Positions 9,687-30,816 of a stretch of DNA of 48,307 nt are shown in pieces; the stretch's first letter is position 1; every line of letters starts with the position of its first letter. The notes under the pieces are model-generated. The model saw only the letters and a list, made by a program, of their open reading frames with translations. It had not been told where the DNA came from and did not search any database. Source of the stretch: Bacteroidota bacterium (GTDB taxonomy: Bacteria > Bacteroidota > Bacteroidia > Bacteroidales > Prolixibacteraceae); the NCBI GenBank assembly GCA_029265715.1, contig JAJUGZ010000022.1:1-48307 (forward strand). The letters are read 5' to 3'. The position numbers and the translations under genes were made by a program.

Positions 9687-11069
9687 ATGGGCGAACTTTT
9701 AAAAGAACGAATGAAGCAGATCGTCACCAAACGGCAAGGCGACCATGCTGAAATTGCCTGCGGAAAAGCAAGTCTGGCCGGATCGGTCAGCCAGCGGGCA
9801 TGTGTGTTTTGCGGGTCACGGGTGGTTTTGTATCCCATTGCCGATGCATTGCACCTGATACACGGGCCGGTTGGGTGCGCTGCTTATACCTGGGATATTC
9901 GCGGGGCACTTTCGTCCGGGCCACAAATCCACCGCCTGAGTTTTACCACCGACCTGAAAGAAAAAGAAGTGGTATTTGGCGGCGAAACCCGGTTGTACAA
10001 TGCCCTTGTCAGTCTGATTGATACGTACAAACCGAAGGGCGCTTTTGTGTACGCTACCTGTATTGTAGGTGTAATTGGCGACGATGTGGAAGCCGTTTGC
10101 CGCCGGGTAACCAAAGAAAAAGGCATCGACGTGATCCCGGTCATGTCGGAAGGGTTTAACGGGACCAAAAAAGACGGCTACAAAATTGCCTGTAGCGCTT
10201 TATCGAAACTGATTGGCACCGATCCGGTTTACAAAGCTCCGGAATACAGCATCAACATTTTGGGCGACTTTAACCTGGCCGGCGAACTCTGGATGCTTTC
10301 TGAGTATTACCGGAAAATGGGCGTGAACCTGGTAGCCTGCATGACCGGCGATGGCCGAATCGACGATATCCGGAAAGCACACACTGCCCAGCTCAACGTG
10401 GTCCAATGCTCCGGATCGATGGTGCATCTGGCCAAAGAAATGAAAGAAAAGTACGGCATCCCGTTCATGAAGGTCTCCTATTTCGGGATCGAAGACATGT
10501 CGGACGCCTTGTATGAAGTAGCCCGTTTTTTCAAATCGGAAGAGATGATGGAAAAAGCCCGGGCGCTGGTGAAAGAAGAACTCAGCCGGTTGTTACCGGC
10601 CCTCCAACCTTATCGCGCGCAATTGGAAGGAAAGAAAGCTGCGATTTATGTGGGAGGGGCCTTTAAAGCGATTTCCCTGGTCAAGGCGCTTCGGCTCATC
10701 GGGATGAAAACCGTGGTTGTCGGCTCGCAAACGGGTAACACCGACGACTACAACCTGCTGAAAGAACTGTGTGACGAAGGTACCATCATTGTAGACGACT
10801 CCAATCCGAACGAACTTTCTGAATTTGTAAAACTTACGGGGGCTGACCTTTTCATCGGCGGGGTGAAAGAACGGCCAATAGCTTACAAGCTCGGACTCGG
10901 ATTTTGCGATCACAATCACGAACGGAAAGAAGCGCTGGCCGGCTACGAAGGCATGTTGAATTTTGCGAAGGAAGTTCATGCTTCGGTTTGCAGCCCGGTC
11001 TGGAAGTTTATGAGAGGCCCCACCCCGACCCTCCCCGAAGGGGAGGGAGAAAGAGGGAACCATATTTAA
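9687..11069 (+). CDS. nifE: FeMo-cofactor scaffold subunit NifE
   Basis: 460 residues, homologous to NifD. NifE and NifN form the scaffold on which the NifB product is matured to FeMo-cofactor. Cysteine motifs are RACVFCGSR (about 39-42), GPVGCAAY (about 64) and ATCIVGVIGDD (about 124). As expected for NifE, the FeMo-cofactor histidine motif of NifD is not kept. The family normally ends soon after SPVWKF. Here residues 442-460 (MRGPTPTLPEGEGERGNHI) are encoded by a GC-rich palindromic repeat that also supplies the last codons before the stop. The tail is therefore a recent insertion product, probably harmless because it is at the end. Confidence 0.95.
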   Translation: MGELLKERMKQIVTKRQGDHAEIACGKASLAGSVSQRACVFCGSRVVLYPIADALHLIHGPVGCAAYTWDIRGALSSGPQIHRLSFTTDLKEKEVVFGGETRLYNALVSLIDTYKPKGAFVYATCIVGVIGDDVEAVCRRVTKEKGIDVIPVMSEGFNGTKKDGYKIACSALSKLIGTDPVYKAPEYSINILGDFNLAGELWMLSEYYRKMGVNLVACMTGDGRIDDIRKAHTAQLNVVQCSGSMVHLAKEMKEKYGIPFMKVSYFGIEDMSDALYEVARFFKSEEMMEKARALVKEELSRLLPALQPYRAQLEGKKAAIYVGGAFKAISLVKALRLIGMKTVVVGSQTGNTDDYNLLKELCDEGTIIVDDSNPNELSEFVKLTGADLFIGGVKERPIAYKLGLGFCDHNHERKEALAGYEGMLNFAKEVHASVCSPVWKFMRGPTPTLPEGEGERGNHI

Positions 11070-11219
11070 TGAATACTTTGAAAGGCAGATATTAAAAAAG
11101 CAACCAATGGAGAGGACTCAGAAAATACAAAATACAGCAGGCTCAGAAGCCTCCCCTTCGGGGAGATTTAGAGGGGCTTCTTCTTTCTCCTACCCTTCGG
11201 GGGGATTAGGGGGGGCTGT
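11016..11219 (+). repeat. Paired palindromic element 1, at the nifE/nifN junction
   Basis: The left palindrome CCCTCCCC-GAA-GGGGAGGG (11029-11047) lies within a GGCCCCACCCCGAC flank. The right palindrome CTCCCC-TTC-GGGGAG (11151-11165) is followed by ATTTAGAGGGGCTTC. A second right-type unit, CCTACCCTTCGGGGGGATTAG, is at 11190-11210. Left and right ends are inverted relative to each other, like terminal inverted repeats of a miniature element. The roughly 100 bases between them contain the nifN start codon and resemble the interior of element 3 at 14,312-14,477. It overlaps the end of nifE and the beginning of nifN. Confidence 0.75.
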
Positions 11220-12585
11220 AGCAACGCGGAATGCCTGTAAACTGTGCGCTCCGCTTGGGGCCAGCGTGGCTTTTAAAGGGATCCGGGGCTGTGTCCCGAT
11301 CATCCACGGGTCGCAGGGATGTGCCACCTATATCCGGCGCTACCTGATCAGCCACTATAAAGAACCGGTCGATATTGCCTCGTCGAACTTTACCGAAGAA
11401 GCGACCATTTTCGGCGGGGGCGCCAACTGTCACACGGCCATCGATAATGTGATCAGCCAATACAAGCCCGAGGTTGTTGCGCTTACAACCACCTGTTTGA
11501 GCGAGACCATTGGCGACGACGTTAACCTCTATATCCACAATTATAAACTACATGCCAAAGACCGGGAGTTGCCGCATTTTATTGCGGCTTCTACTCCCAG
11601 TTACCAGGGCTCGCACATGGACGGCTTTCACGAAGCCGTTTCAGCCACGGTTAAGTCGATTGCCGAAGGTGGCGGGAAAGGTAGCCATATCAATCTTTTC
11701 CCCGGATTTGTTTCGACCGAAGATTTGCGGCAACTGAAAACCATCATGTCCGATTTCGGGATCGGGTACATTTTGCTGCCGGATTATTCCGAAACGCTCG
11801 ACAACCCGATGTGGGAAACTTACAGGCGGATCCCGGAAGGCGGAACGCCCATCGAGTCGGTTAAACGCTGTGGCTCGGCTTGCGCTTCGATCGAAATGGG
11901 AACCGTGCTGAATAAGGGCAGCCTCTCCGGAAGGGTTAAAAACAACAACCTGTCGACTACGGCGGCCGAATATCTGAAGGATCAGTTCGGTGTTGAAAAC
12001 CACCGGATACCAATTCCGGTTGGCGTTGAAATGAACGACCTGTTTTTCGAAACACTGAGCCGGGTTTCAGGAATCCCGATTCCGGAGAAATACCTGAAAG
12101 AACGGGGCCGGCTGATCGATTCGTATGCCGATGGCCACAAATACGTGTTTGGCAAACGGGCCGTGGTATATGGCGAAGAAGACTTTGTGGTGGCCATGAC
12201 CATTTTCCTGAGCGAAATCGGCATCGATGTGGCGCTGGCAGCAACCGGCGGCGAAAGCGGCAGGCTGGCAGAAGAAATCAGAAAATATTGCCCGGCCAAA
12301 GCCGGCACGATCCTGGCGAAAAATGCTTACGACTACGAAATGATACACGAATGGTGTACGGCCAACAAGCCCGACATCCTGATCGGAAACAGCAAGGGCT
12401 ACTATATTGCCCGCGATCTGAAAATACCAATTGTTCGTTGCGGGTTTCCCATCCACGACCGGATTGGCGGGCAACGCATCAAACACATCGGCTACACCGG
12501 GACTCAGGAATTGTTCGACCTGATTGTGAACACACTGATTCAGGACAAACAAGACAAATCGCCCGTCGGCTACAAATACATGTAA
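11107..12585 (+). CDS. nifN: FeMo-cofactor scaffold subunit NifN with repeat-encoded leader
   Basis: 492 residues, homologous to NifK. The conserved protein begins at ATRNACKLCAPLGAS (residue 39 on) with cysteine motifs NACKLC (44, 47), HGSQGC (about 73) and TTCLSETIGDD (about 130). NifN pairs with NifE to mature FeMo-cofactor. Residues 1-38 are not NifN-like: MERTQKIQNTAG plus two translations of the palindromic repeat (ASPSGRFRGA and YPSGGLGGA). Between the ATG at 11107 and the conserved part there is no other in-frame ATG, GTG or TTG, so the leader must be translated unless a rare start is used. The NifV leader is related in sequence. The stop lies 17 bases before nifB. Confidence 0.93.
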   Translation: MERTQKIQNTAGSEASPSGRFRGASSFSYPSGGLGGAVATRNACKLCAPLGASVAFKGIRGCVPIIHGSQGCATYIRRYLISHYKEPVDIASSNFTEEATIFGGGANCHTAIDNVISQYKPEVVALTTTCLSETIGDDVNLYIHNYKLHAKDRELPHFIAASTPSYQGSHMDGFHEAVSATVKSIAEGGGKGSHINLFPGFVSTEDLRQLKTIMSDFGIGYILLPDYSETLDNPMWETYRRIPEGGTPIESVKRCGSACASIEMGTVLNKGSLSGRVKNNNLSTTAAEYLKDQFGVENHRIPIPVGVEMNDLFFETLSRVSGIPIPEKYLKERGRLIDSYADGHKYVFGKRAVVYGEEDFVVAMTIFLSEIGIDVALAATGGESGRLAEEIRKYCPAKAGTILAKNAYDYEMIHEWCTANKPDILIGNSKGYYIARDLKIPIVRCGFPIHDRIGGQRIKHIGYTGTQELFDLIVNTLIQDKQDKSPVGYKYM

Positions 12586-12602
12586 CTCTAAATCGAACTG
12601 CT

Positions 12603-13859
12603 ATGATTGACCTCGAAAAACATCCGTGCTTCAACATCGAAGCGAAAGGGATCTATGCCCGGGTTCATTTACCGGTAGCTCCCAAATGCAATATTCAGTG
12701 CAACTATTGCAAGCGCGATTTCGATTGCGTGAACGAAAGCCGTCCGGGCGTAACCAGCGAAGTGCTTTCGCCGGAACAGGCTCTGGCTTACCTGATTAAG
12801 CTGGAAGAGAAAATGCCACACCTTTCGGTGGTTGGCATTGCCGGGCCGGGCGACCCGTTTGCCAATCCGGACGAAACGATGACCACCTTGCGGCTGGTAC
12901 GGAGCCATTTCCCCGACATGATTTTATGCCTGTCGTCGAACGGGTTGAATGTGGCTCCCTATGTCGAAGAGTTGGCTGAGTTGGGGGTCAGTCATGTCAC
13001 CATCACCCTGAATGCCCTCGATACCGGGGTCACAGAAAAAATATATAAATGGGCCCGCTGGAACAAACAGGGCTATTTCGGGAAAGCGGCTGCCGAACTG
13101 CTGCTTGAAAATCAGATCCTGGCCATCCGCATGCTCCGGAAATTCGGGATCACGGTAAAAATCAACACGATCGTTGTCCCCGGAATCAACGATCATCTGG
13201 TTGAGTCGGTCGCAGAAAAAGCCAAAGAGCTGGGCGCTGAACTGATGAATGCCATTCCGCTTTATCCGGTCGAAGGAACTCCTTTGGGGACTCTGAAGGA
13301 ACCGGATGTGCTGACCATGCGCGAAATCAGGCTGAAAATTGCCAGACACCTGAAGCCGATGACCCACTGTGCGCGTTGCCGTGCCGATGCCGTTGGCTTG
13401 CTGGGGCAGGACGATGCCGAAGCAAAAAAAATCATGTCGGAAGTTACGTCGATGAGCGCTGTGCCAGACGAAACCCGTCCGTTTGTGGCGGTGGCCAGTT
13501 ACGAAGGAATGCTGGTGAACCAACACCTGGGCGAGGCCGACCGGGTGTATGTTTTCCGTGAAACACCGAATGGTTACCGGTTGGTTGAACAGCGCAAAAC
13601 ACCGCCCGCCGGTACCGGAAATGCCCGATGGGAAACGCTTGGAAAGATGTTGGACGATTGCCGTGCGTTGCTGGTTGGGGGGATTGGCCCCAGTCCGTCG
13701 GCCATCATCGGGCGCAGCGGCATCCGGATTATCGAAATGACCGGCTTGATCGACGAAGGCCTGGATGCTGTTTACAAAGGCAAGGAATTGCGAACCGTGA
13801 AAAAGGCCGACGTTTTCAAATGTGGCGCCTCTTGCTCCGGGAAAGCAACCGGGTGCTGA
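12603..13859 (+). CDS. nifB: NifB, radical SAM FeMo-cofactor core synthase, fused to a NifX-like domain
   Basis: 418 residues from the ATG at 12603. An open frame extends upstream inside nifN but is not NifB-like. The radical SAM motif C-x3-C-x2-C is CNIQCNYC (Cys29, 33, 36), followed by the NifB signature GIAGPGDPFANP. The radical SAM part spans about 1-270, with further cysteines THCARCRADAVG. From about 300 to the end lies the dinitrogenase Fe-Mo cofactor-binding (NifX/NafY) domain, with MLVNQHLGEADRVYVF and GIGPSPSAII. NifB fuses two [4Fe-4S] units with a SAM-derived carbide to form the L-cluster/NifB-co. The C-terminal domain probably holds or passes on the product. The stop lies about six bases before palindromic element 2. 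Confidence 0.95.
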   Translation: MIDLEKHPCFNIEAKGIYARVHLPVAPKCNIQCNYCKRDFDCVNESRPGVTSEVLSPEQALAYLIKLEEKMPHLSVVGIAGPGDPFANPDETMTTLRLVRSHFPDMILCLSSNGLNVAPYVEELAELGVSHVTITLNALDTGVTEKIYKWARWNKQGYFGKAAAELLLENQILAIRMLRKFGITVKINTIVVPGINDHLVESVAEKAKELGAELMNAIPLYPVEGTPLGTLKEPDVLTMREIRLKIARHLKPMTHCARCRADAVGLLGQDDAEAKKIMSEVTSMSAVPDETRPFVAVASYEGMLVNQHLGEADRVYVFRETPNGYRLVEQRKTPPAGTGNARWETLGKMLDDCRALLVGGIGPSPSAIIGRSGIRIIEMTGLIDEGLDAVYKGKELRTVKKADVFKCGASCSGKATGC

Positions 13860-13864
13860 AAGAG

Positions 13865-13993
13865 AAAGCCCCTCTAAATCTCCCCGAAGGGGAAGACTTT
13901 TAAAAAACGTTCTTTTTATAATTGAAAGTGCATGATATTATTAACCAGCTCTTCTGACTCCCTCCCCAAAGGGGAGGGTTGGGGTGGGGCTTC
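13865..13993 (+). repeat. Paired palindromic element 2, between nifB and ferredoxin gene
   Basis: The left unit AAGCCCCTCTAAATCTCCCC-GAA-GGGGA (about 13866-13893) is the reverse complement of the right unit of element 1. The right unit CCCTCCCC-AAA-GGGGAGGG (13960-13978), followed by TTGGGGTGGGGCTTC, is the reverse complement of the left unit of element 1. The roughly 65-base interior is AT-rich. The element lies just after the nifB stop (13859) and ends about 12 bases before the ferredoxin start, so it is not translated. It fills almost the entire 145-base gap. Confidence 0.7.
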
Positions 13994-14004
13994 ATTTTTT
14001 AATC

Positions 14005-14310
14005 ATGAAAAAACCAGACTATCACATCCTGATTTGCAACTCGTACCGGGTTGCCGGCGACGCCAAAGGCTACTGCAACAAAAACGGCGGGGCCGAATTT
14101 ATTCAGTACGTAACTGAAGAGTGTGCTGATCGCGGCCTTGACGTAGCTGTTTCGTCAACCGCTTGTTTGAATGTTTGCTCGCAGGGGCCGGTTATGGTTA
14201 TTCAGCCCAATAACTGGTGGTATGGCGGCATCACAACCGACCGTATCGACGAAATCCTCGACGCCCTTGAAGAAGGAAATGCCGTGGACGAGTACCTGAT
14301 CAGCGAATAG
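14005..14310 (+). CDS. Thioredoxin-fold [2Fe-2S] ferredoxin of the nif cluster
   Basis: 101 residues from the ATG at 14005. Four cysteines at 11, 24, 54 and 58 (ILICNSY, GYCNKNG, STACLNVC) fit the ligand pattern of the thioredoxin-like [2Fe-2S] ferredoxins represented by the Clostridium pasteurianum protein (102 residues), which has been linked to the MoFe protein. SQGPVMVIQPNNWWYG is the family signature after the last ligand. The likely role is electron transfer connected with nitrogenase or cofactor assembly, an inference from location between nifB and nifV. A clostridial-type extra cysteine near position 14 is absent (Tyr here). Paired palindromic elements flank the gene on both sides. 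Confidence 0.85.
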   Translation: MKKPDYHILICNSYRVAGDAKGYCNKNGGAEFIQYVTEECADRGLDVAVSSTACLNVCSQGPVMVIQPNNWWYGGITTDRIDEILDALEEGNAVDEYLISE

Positions 14311-14311
14311 A

Positions 14312-14477
14312 AAGGGAGCCCCATTCCCCGCCCTTCCCCGAGGAGGAAAGGAGTTAGGGCAGCGAACACTTTAAAACGGCTAATCTTAAAAAGAAACGAC
14401 CAATGGAAAGAACACGGAAGAATCAAAATAAGGCAGGCCAAAAGTCCTCCTCCTCCGGAAGGGTTAGGGGAGGCTAT
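14312..14477 (+). repeat. Paired palindromic element 3, at the ferredoxin/nifV junction
   Basis: A degenerate relative of element 1. The left unit AGCCCCATTCCCCGCCC, then TTCCCCGAGGAGGAAAGG, is at about 14317-14352. The right unit CCTCCTCCTCCGGAAGGG, then TTAGGGGAGG, is at about 14446-14473. Between them the interior matches element 1 base by base over long stretches (GAAxACTTT, TTAAAAA, CCAATGGA, then AGGCAGGC). It contains the nifV start codon at 14403 and runs into its first 24 codons. Confidence 0.65.
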
Positions 14478-15596
14478 ATCATCGATACTACCCTTCGGGA
14501 CGGCGAGCAGGCCCCGGGGGTAGTTTTTACCCTTCCGGAGAAACTTCGCATAGCCGCGATGCTCGAAGAGTTGGGGATCAACGAAGTGGAAGTTGGTACG
14601 CCCGCCATGGGGCCCGATGAACAACAGGTGATCAGTGAGATCGTCAAAAGCGGGTTCCGGTTTGATAAGCTTTGCTGGGCGCGTGCCAGGGAGTCCGATG
14701 TTGAGGCATCGGCCCGGACCGGCGCTAACCGTATCAATATTTCGTTCCCGGTTTCCGATATCCAGTTGTCGGCCATTGGGCGGAACCGCGGGTGGGTACT
14801 CGGACACATGCCCCGGATGGTGGCGCTGGCCCGTCGTTTCTTCGGATTCGTGGCGATTGGCTTTCAGGATGCAAGCCGGGCCGATCGCGATTTCATGGAT
14901 GAGTTCATCACGGCTTGTCTGGCCGAAGGTGTTGACCGGATTCGGTTGGCCGATACGGTTGGAACACTCAACCCGTTTTCGGTGGCCGAGTTGTTTACCT
15001 CGGTGACCCAACGGTTCCCGTTTGTCGATTTTGAATTTCATGGGCACAACGACCTGGGCATGGCAACGGCCAATTCGCTTGCGGCATTTCTGTCGGGGGC
15101 CCGATCGGTCAGCGCGACCATCAACGGGTTAGGTGAGCGAGCCGGAAACGCTTGTCTGGAAGAACTGGCCATGGCAATGAAAGTGAGCGCCAACATGAAC
15201 CCCGGACTGAATATACCGATGGTGCAGAAAATATGCCGGTATGTGTCCGATGTTTCGTACCGGGCAATTCACGAGTCGAAACCGATTACCGGCGAGATGA
15301 TTTGCCGGCACGAGTCGGGCATTCATTGCCGGAGCCTGATGGAAAACGAGTTGGCCTACCAGCCTTTTCGTCCGGAGGAATTAGGCCGGGAAACCGAATT
15401 AGTTATTGGTAAGCATAGCGGATCGGGAGCAGTAAAACGGTATTTAAACAATCATGGCGTTTCGCTTCAACCCGGGCAAATAGACCAATTGATGAATCGG
15501 TTGAAATCAAAATCAGGTCGGGAGAGGCGGGTTATCGCTTTTGATGAGGTTCTGACAATGGTGAATGAAGATAAAAGGCATATTTCTATTTTTTGA
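14403..15596 (+). CDS. nifV: Homocitrate synthase NifV with repeat-encoded leader
   Basis: 397 residues. NifV condenses acetyl-CoA and 2-oxoglutarate to R-homocitrate, the organic ligand of FeMo-cofactor. Conserved parts are YIIDTTLRDGEQAPGV (residue 25 on, with the metal-binding Asp and the catalytic Arg), the metal ligands in FHGHNDLGMATANS (about 219-232) and HESGIHCRSL (about 304). Residues 1-24 (MERTRKNQNKAG, then QKSSSSGRVRGG) are not part of the family and resemble the NifN leader. No other in-frame ATG, GTG or TTG lies before the conserved core, so the palindromic element supplies the start. It completes the set needed for FeMo-cofactor synthesis. Confidence 0.95.
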   Translation: MERTRKNQNKAGQKSSSSGRVRGGYIIDTTLRDGEQAPGVVFTLPEKLRIAAMLEELGINEVEVGTPAMGPDEQQVISEIVKSGFRFDKLCWARARESDVEASARTGANRINISFPVSDIQLSAIGRNRGWVLGHMPRMVALARRFFGFVAIGFQDASRADRDFMDEFITACLAEGVDRIRLADTVGTLNPFSVAELFTSVTQRFPFVDFEFHGHNDLGMATANSLAAFLSGARSVSATINGLGERAGNACLEELAMAMKVSANMNPGLNIPMVQKICRYVSDVSYRAIHESKPITGEMICRHESGIHCRSLMENELAYQPFRPEELGRETELVIGKHSGSGAVKRYLNNHGVSLQPGQIDQLMNRLKSKSGRERRVIAFDEVLTMVNEDKRHISIF

Positions 15597-30639: not shown

Positions 30640-30713
30640 CGGTGCGGACGGGACTCGAACCCGCGACCCCCGGCGTGACAGGCCGGTATTCTAACCGACT
30701 GAACTACCGCACC
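30640..30713 (-). tRNA. tRNA-Asp (anticodon GTC), copy 2 of the transcript
   Basis: 74 bases. The acceptor arm GGTGCGG/CCGCACC has discriminator G. The D-loop is AGTTCAGTCGGTTAGAA, the anticodon stem CCGGC/GCCGG holds a loop with GTC, and the T-arm loop is GTTCGAGTC type. The 3' CCA is not encoded. It is identical to the copy at 30743-30816. Confidence 0.97.
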
Positions 30714-30742
30714 AAATGATGTGCTTTAAATATCGGAACTTG

Positions 30743-30816
30743 CGGTGCGGACGGGACTCGAACCCGCGACCCCCGGCGTGACAGGCCGGTATTCTAACCG
30801 ACTGAACTACCGCACC
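30743..30816 (-). tRNA. tRNA-Asp (anticodon GTC), copy 1 of the transcript
   Basis: 74 bases, identical to the following copy, with a 29-base spacer between them. Cloverleaf and anticodon GTC as for the other copy. The two are probably co-transcribed from a promoter in the AT-rich bases above 30820 and end at the hairpin at 30611-30638. Confidence 0.97.

Follow-up and report, generated by a model that had tools for sequence, protein, structure and literature searches.

What are the short palindromes that stand between the nitrogen fixation (nif) genes of a Prolixibacteraceae bacterium, and what do they do to the genes that they separate? The window, the whole stretch of 48,307 nucleotides that was analyzed, is contig C75 (GenBank JAJUGZ010000022.1) of a 4.2-Mb draft genome of 99.94% completeness, here labeled G000. 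It contains nifH, nifD, nifK, nifE, nifN, nifB, a gene for a thioredoxin-like [2Fe-2S] ferredoxin, and nifV, in that order; the nif genes were assigned from protein family matches and gene order, and the ferredoxin gene by PF01257. Palindrome-bounded elements are found at three junctions: nifE/nifN (element 1), nifB/ferredoxin (element 2), and ferredoxin/nifV (element 3). These intervals are probably copies of a single small mobile family with paired hairpin ends that occurs in Bacteroidota; the family appears to have donated the starts of nifN and nifV and rewritten the C terminus of NifE. The family is best read as a mobile family akin to REPINs and the Rickettsia palindromic elements that rewrites protein ends. 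It is dispersed, tail-outward wherever its units are paired, present or absent at the same junctions in different genomes, and often in frame with a neighboring gene.

Palindromes of the form CTCCCC-NNN-GGGGAG, with up to two mismatches, occur in the window at 11031, 11151, 11190, 13880, and 13962; these five compare with 1.26 expected from shuffles, and five were reached in 1 of 100 shuffles. Three of the seven exact palindromes in the genome fall within the 3-kb nif stretch. A covariance model of one hairpin unit and its GGGGC tail (R1) was built from an alignment of 22 hand-picked units. In element 1, R1 identified a left end unit (11016–11046, minus strand; R1 match 11017–11046, 33.7 bits) with its tail directed leftward, at the native position of the nifE stop codon, and two right end units (11150–11179, 37.3 bits, and 11189–11218, 34.9 bits; both plus strand), each in frame within NifN. 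Element 2 consists of a left unit directly after the nifB stop codon at 13857–13859 (13866–13895, minus strand, 35.1 bits) and a right unit upstream of the ferredoxin gene (13961–13990, plus strand, 27.8 bits). The left unit of element 3, directly after the ferredoxin stop codon at 14308–14310, is degenerate and weak (14319–14346, minus strand, 14.3 bits, E 0.12), and its right unit (14447–14476, plus strand, 34.1 bits) lies in frame within NifV; the palindromes of this element are too degenerate to appear among the matches with up to two mismatches. At E up to 1, R1 found no units elsewhere in the window, the two other weak matches overlapping units already listed. Paired ends in the nif elements are approximately 65–110 bases apart. 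The interiors of element 1 (11047–11149, plus strand) and element 3 (14347–14446, plus strand) are homologous and align across approximately 80 bases, with a score of 57 against a best of 34 in 500 shuffles (0/500), and the nifN ATG (11107) and nifV ATG (14403) occupy the same place within this shared interior. Element 2 is reversed relative to the other two, and its interior is unrelated to theirs, its scores with elements 1 and 3 being reached by 204/500 and 41/500 shuffles, respectively. The shared interior was also considered as a genome-wide repeat in its own right; this was rejected, as searches of G000 returned only end units and one weak 41-base match.

In short copies such as elements 1 and 3, a start codon and the codons of a short leader precede the right end; nifN (11107–12585, plus strand; first ~38 codons from element 1) and nifV (homocitrate synthase; 14403–15596, plus strand; first ~24 codons from element 3) would open inside the element. 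Because the interior contains a translation start, both elements would replace the starts of these genes. The element ATG of nifN is the sole in-frame ATG, GTG, or TTG ahead of the conserved CKLCAPLG motif, and the downstream GTG lies behind that motif. NifV opens inside element 3 with its HMGL-like domain beginning at residue 25, and the next ATG, GTG, or TTG after the element unit is only reached 27 codons further on. At the other end of element 1, the nifE frame continues into the element and gains a tail, GPTPTLPEGEGERGNHI followed by a stop codon (11016–11069, plus strand); NifE ends ..SPVWKFMK in five genomes of the genus, and element-free relatives align only to residue 442–443. The left end of element 1 thereby appears to rewrite the NifE C terminus.

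The earlier note on this window had placed paired palindromes at these three junctions, with a common interior in elements 1 and 3 and reverse orientation in element 2; palindrome matches, R1 units, their strands, and the alignment score all bear this out. Its description of inverted pairs is right for the paired ends and too simple for element 1, which has three units, and for element 3, with its degenerate palindromes; likewise, the alignment that it proposed of all three intervals unites elements 1 and 3 and leaves out the interior of element 2. The effect on protein ends that it had foreseen is found, by frame reading, in the NifE tail and the NifN and NifV starts. The note missed the start codon in the interior and the DUF559 domain in longer members of the family, described below.

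Relatives allowed the same junctions to be compared with and without elements. A search for NifN in a 60-genome sample of the family gave 17 other positive genomes, 3 of them from the genus, and all 17 loci were examined; named relatives among the matches include Sunxiuqinia, Mangrovibacterium, and Draconibacterium. A search of all 23 genus genomes added six nif clusters, making 10 with that of G000, part of them interrupted by contig ends. Junctions were scored by R1 together with reading of the junction sequence. The nifE/nifN element is present in G000, G018, G035, G074, G071, and G073, and the nifB/ferredoxin element in G000, G035, G074, and G066. The ferredoxin/nifV junction is occupied in G000 and G035. 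Elements absent from G000 were seen at nifN/nifB (G018, G074, and G071, and as a left unit at a contig end in G073) and at nifK/nifE (G074; G066, by pattern and below threshold in R1; and G071, a single unit by pattern). In G058, G070, and G061, no R1 unit was found within the nif loci examined. Among 14 genomes of the family outside the genus (E up to 0.1), R1 found one unit in G014, which by reading is a pair at nifB/ferredoxin, and one weak unit in G004 (E 0.074). The elements look mobile because related nif clusters have them at other junctions or not at all, and the element-free versions that the earlier note had named as a sign of mobility do exist. In a tree of nif proteins, run with only NifE and NifN for G073 and also run without G073, the genomes with the nifE/nifN element do not form a clade, and G035 is nested with G066, G058, and G070, whose nifN has a native start. 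This distribution requires either that elements were gained more than once or that nif segments recombined. Other palindromes share these junctions: a second family (AGCCCCGGCTTTCAAGCCGGGG .. TTTTAGCGCCGGA) lies at nifE/nifN and nifN/nifB in G058, G066, and G035 (L067, L068, and L099), and a third paired element (CCCGAACTTGTTTCGGGATCT .. AGATCCTGAAACAAGTTCAGGATGAC, with variants) recurs at nifB/ferredoxin in several genomes (L069, L074, L100, L101, and L088).

NifN opens with an element-encoded leader in 6 of the 10 genus clusters. The leader is MERTQKIQNTAGSEASPSGRFRGASSFSYPSGGLGGAVATRNACKLC in G000 and METPISKDKSTH.. in G018, G035, and G073, with similar versions in G071 and G074; native starts in element-free genomes of the genus read MIENTPIIKSTPEYT.. 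or similar (G058 and G066) or MKDTI.. (G070 and G061). A leader of the METPISKDKSTH type also opens NifB in G018. When the genus was searched with it, 11 matches were obtained, six at nif and five elsewhere, with R1 units at four of the latter. By Pfam, three of these are a Gfo/Idh oxidoreductase (G074), an ABC-2 transporter protein (G077), and a methylpurine-DNA glycosylase (G063); the fourth, named by reading, is a HAD-like protein in G018 whose likely start is TTG. The fifth, in G066, lacks an R1 unit and was discounted as a chance match. More broadly, in 43 readings the unit shares its frame with a start before it and with 120 or more codons after it. Twenty genes among them, nifN and nifV included, are candidate cases of start donation, with the unit in sense orientation and not internal and the next ATG at least 24 codons past it; they are spread over G000, G018, G035, G047, G075, and G076, and one opens with GTG. 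Ten of the 20 also have no GTG or TTG inside those 24 codons. Among the 20, a glutamine amidotransferase (GATase) resembling TrpG has, in three genomes, the motif IDNYDSFTYN directly after the element; we take this motif to be the very N terminus of TrpG. From these frames we infer that element ATGs are used as starts. Elsewhere, in G064 (L206:4502-4531), an element seems by reading to fuse an upstream open reading frame (ORF) with an aldolase-like ORF in a 922-codon frame.

Beyond nif, R1 units are dispersed through the genomes. Whole-genome searches scored the best 150 of 203–525 first-look candidates per genome, so unit counts are lower bounds; G000 has at least 62 units at E up to 1 (best 150 of 403 candidates scored). 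Units were found in 21 of the 23 genus genomes at E up to 0.01, 3 to 90 in each; their absence from G062 (5.0 Mb) and G065 (3.8 Mb) suggests that matches of the model are not random. Pairing and position were assessed in 107 clusters of units, taken from the window, 24 other regions of G000, and 39 regions around the best-scoring matches in ten other genus genomes. One of 40 loci (L178) was searched for nif-junction units only and does not enter the cluster analysis. Six of 70 matches from G000 were omitted (15.0–16.3 bits; four overlap stronger matches on the opposite strand) and the weak unit at 14319 was added; the last two of 106 matches from the other genomes, both overlapping stronger ones, were also omitted, and none of the omitted matches would form a tail-inward pair. 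Tail-outward pairing was observed in 51 of the 107 clusters (42 −+, 5 −−+, and 4 −++) and tail-inward pairing in none, with one −− and one ++ cluster. Positions were defined by a simple longest-ORF caller, not by annotation: nine clusters lie inside an ORF, five at a locus edge, and 93 between two ORFs. The last comprise 82 co-directional, 9 convergent, and 2 divergent junctions, compared with 80, 15, and 31 among 126 other gene pairs of these loci that are separated by 100 bases or more (Fisher p 1.5e-6 for divergent versus the rest and 4e-5 for co-directional versus the rest, for clusters that are not independent because loci of different genomes can be orthologous).

Local clustering is general and not special to nif. 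Of the 41 element groups in G000, 23 lie within 5 kb of another one (random mean 3.7), and an operon in G075 that resembles one for leucine biosynthesis (L181) has units at every one of its four internal junctions and on its two flanks; its order by Pfam is HMGL-like with LeuA_dimer, Aconitase, Aconitase_C, HMGL-like with LeuA_dimer, and Iso_dh. Targeting specific to nif was rejected on these grounds, and the view of the earlier note that the clustering in nif is what stands out is not supported, other operons being as heavily occupied. The note is partly supported overall: its miniature family with inverted paired ends that entered one operon repeatedly agrees with the dispersed units and variable junctions, and the genome-wide copies that it called for are numerous and share the tail-outward pairing, though many are single units.

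A very different account would have the hairpins evolve in place between nif genes as fixed regulatory RNA, such as attenuators, RNase barriers, or devices for translational coupling. The elements do lie inside an operon, and elements 1 and 3 are each predicted to fold as a single long hairpin enclosing the start codon, with energies of -52.1 and -55.9, well under those of shuffled sequences (means of -35.2 and -35.8, sd 4.2); element 2 gives -42.4 (mean -29.1, sd 3.3), the baseline in each case being 50 single-base shuffles. Against this, elements are absent or differently placed at the junctions of relatives, the identical type of unit occurs at unrelated genes and within the valyl-tRNA synthetase (ValRS) gene, and a gathering-score search of the window with Rfam returned only two tRNAs, by which a known RNA family was also rejected. 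A fixed regulatory structure is highly improbable, since the positions vary in a way that largely refutes it, though the elements may influence regulation as a side effect. That the elements affect the folding of mRNA or its stability is no more than a prediction from the computed folds, and an effect of the long hairpin on translation would be a guess. The two tRNA genes lie in tandem at 30640–30816 on the minus strand, with equal scores.

What could move such short elements? Within the ValRS gene of G000, R1 units surround a DUF559 domain. Pfam still describes DUF559 as a family of unknown function; by sequence it is similar to 3hrl, an endonuclease-like protein of solved structure (E 7e-19), and it matches the REase_MTES_1575 family only below the cut-off. 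A search of the genus gave 28 DUF559 matches in 14 of 23 genomes, half of them within frames of 600 aa or longer, namely eight in ValRS, three in a synthetase resembling isoleucyl-tRNA synthetase (IleRS), and three in Type ISP restriction-methylases (L223, L238, and L239). Pfam assigns the IleRS-like hosts (L218, L220, and L221) to the class I aminoacyl-tRNA synthetases, and from their motifs we presume them to be IleRS. Tail-outward R1 units approximately 400 bases apart bracket 11 of these 14 domains (E 1e-6 to 0.04), the three others being the Type ISP hosts; none of the remaining 14 genus matches is R1-bracketed at E up to 1, and some have other hairpins nearby. The ValRS site was readable in 20 genomes, all but G073, G074, and G077: eight have DUF559, two have a right-end unit only, and ten are empty, as is a ValRS paralogue in G075. 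It holds two distinct insert types, which is consistent with inserts having been acquired separately, or replaced, at a single site. Where ratios of nonsynonymous to synonymous substitution (dN/dS) could be computed, those of the inserts are 0.06–0.26, indicating purifying selection, and those of neighboring ValRS codons, which are more constrained, 0.01–0.07, with dS high or not computable in many pairs. Between G076 and G075, 130 neighboring ValRS codons have dN 0.00 and dS 0.40, and the insert has dN 0.38 and dS 2.84. A Pfam scan of 11 DUF559-carrying host proteins at E 1e-5 detected no protein-splicing (Hint) domain. PADLOC, run on three DUF559 proteins, found no match in the ValRS host, matched a standalone protein weakly to mREase_II, and assigned the HsdR host to type I restriction.

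The association extends across the phylum. DUF559 matches were found in 171 of 296 sampled genomes, and 35 of the 150 best matches listed, which include the one of G000, fall within frames of 600 aa or longer, with hosts that by Pfam include leucyl-tRNA synthetase (LeuRS; L281), MetH (L285), HsdR (L298), and Type ISP (L276). In the HsdR protein at L298, a GIY-YIG domain accompanies the DUF559 insert. A model-free count of hairpins with C/T arms was made at 51 loci with full flanks, the phylum being represented by its 30 best-placed loci and 7 of 58 loci falling out as shorter than 3,200 bases. Such hairpins lie on both sides of DUF559 at 32 of them (13/24 in the genus and 19/27 elsewhere) and on at least one side at 44; in off-centre control windows from the same loci, the figures are 0/1020 and 77/1020.

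Two other accounts of the mover have to be weighed against the proposal that DUF559 fills this role, which is plausible. One holds that the domains are passengers, independent selfish nuclease genes that land preferentially in palindromes moved by something else. It gains from the half of the genus DUF559 matches that lack R1 brackets and from four element-rich genomes (G047, G063, G074, and G077) in which no in-frame DUF559 was found, a result that also counts against our own proposal; the mobiliser may have been lost there or may be a different one. The hairpins on both sides of DUF559, never matched in control windows, speak against it. So does the distribution of in-frame DUF559, which tracks element abundance: it occurs in 9 of the 13 genomes that have 25 units or more (a threshold of the analyst's choice) and in 1 of the 10 below that number (p 0.0097, without correction for kinship), and standalone DUF559 shows no such link (5/13 and 3/10). 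That the domains are passengers is a serious possibility that nonetheless falls short of being probable. The other account is that the elements are classical REPINs, doublets of repetitive extragenic palindromic (REP) sequences moved by a genome-encoded REP-associated tyrosine transposase (RAYT; TnpA-REP, a Y1 transposase). REP families, in the portions of PMC3733652 drawn on here, include inverted doublets with spacers mostly of 20–100 bp, singletons, and intragenic copies, and a TnpA-REP subclass, 2.6, is described in part of PMC6006769 as mostly in Bacteroidetes and flanked by atypical structures. The tails, on inspection GGGG(A)GGC or GGGGCT, are neither GTAG nor CGTC, and G000 has a single Y1_Tnp match, with other palindromes at its flanks and no R1 unit (E up to 0.1) in its 3.3-kb locus, by which a resident RAYT with R1-type ends was rejected for this genome. 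The REPIN account may still hold for the other genus genomes, the Y1_Tnp search having covered G000 only; taken as a whole, it is unlikely. The palindromes beside the sole Y1 transposase match (L031:1300-2200) are of another type, CCCAAGGCG..CCTTGGG and GCCCTTTCAGGGC.

Several observations weigh against a mobile family that donates starts and is moved by DUF559. The R1 training set consists partly of the nif units that R1 then finds. Single-unit clusters (54/107) slightly outnumber the paired ones, and the co-directional excess is modest when all gaps serve as the control (82/93 versus 201/262, p 0.024). The other 10 of the 20 candidate start-donation genes have a GTG or TTG within 24 codons past the unit, which is possibly the real start, and interspecies recombination of nif segments could account in part for the presence of the nifE/nifN element. 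Filled ValRS sites lack 4–5 native codons, so simple insertion would not be clean, and no target-site duplication was seen there by eye, no systematic search having been made. Excision, insertion, and translation starts are all read from sequence.

Set beside known systems, the family behaves like REPINs or the Rickettsia palindromic elements. As outlined in the same portions of PMC3733652, REP families are palindromes of 20–40 bases with a directional tail, arranged in inverted doublets, dispersed, and sometimes intragenic; like REPINs, bacterial interspersed mosaic elements (BIMEs), and REP dimers, the present family consists of dispersed inverted doublets of short tailed palindromes. It differs in having units without the tails of the GTAG and CGTC superfamilies, no Y1 transposase bearing these ends in G000, and a spacer that can contain a translation start or a DUF559 domain. 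Because G000 has no cognate RAYT and the tails differ, the family was not filed as a REPIN. Rickettsia palindromic elements, in the excerpt of PMC10969869 used here, are palindromes of ~150 bp that encode an in-frame peptide within unrelated genes. The present elements, compared with them by description only, likewise encode peptides and are inserted in frame in unrelated genes; unlike them, they seem to supply start codons at operon junctions, are often two-ended, have a long form with an endonuclease-like domain, and belong to another phylum. The same excerpt describes bacterial miniature inverted-repeat transposable elements (MITEs) as short, with terminal inverted ends and some in-frame fusions with host ORFs (PMC10969869). 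Terminal inverted ends and empty sites in relatives are shared with MITEs, but the ends here are tailed hairpins, not plain inverted repeats, no target-site duplication is apparent by eye, and no parent insertion sequence is known; as for an autonomous parent, the DUF559 long forms share their ends with the short forms and may be what moves them. The DUF559 inserts also recall inteins and homing endonuclease genes. In these, essential proteins of several lineages have a nuclease domain in frame at one common site, and empty alleles exist alongside. In-frame nuclease-like domains, a shared site, and empty alleles are all seen here; unlike inteins, the inserts have no splicing domain in the proteins scanned, seem to be retained in the protein, and are bounded by palindromes. 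The long form resembles a homing endonuclease insertion without a splicing domain. Titles and the starts of abstracts in the open-access literature, among the matches listed, contained no description of these elements, of their start donation, or of palindrome-bracketed DUF559.

A sequence of events can be proposed for the family. An element would insert directly behind a stop codon within an operon, and its frame would be joined to the next gene, after which the native start may decay and leave the gene dependent on the element. Local copying or ectopic recombination could then yield nearby copies with the same interior, such as elements 1 and 3. With less certainty, the product of long DUF559 members may move the family in trans, by transposition or by homing, with the nuclease acting on the hairpins or on the empty site. 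Taken together, and offered tentatively as an account that we hold to be somewhat short of probable, this would be a new kind of mobile element in Bacteroidota, bounded by palindromes, whose long form, a DUF559 endonuclease carried unspliced and in frame in the essential genes for ValRS, IleRS, LeuRS, and MetH, spreads both long and short forms, the short forms acting as portable starts, those of nifN and nifV included. A mobile element that supplies start codons and leader peptides would be a simple route to altered protein termini in operons, and the nitrogenase assembly genes of this bacterium seem to have been caught in the act of such a change. The link to DUF559, if true, would assign a function to that Pfam family, and it turns the question of what moves the palindromes into one that can be tested directly.

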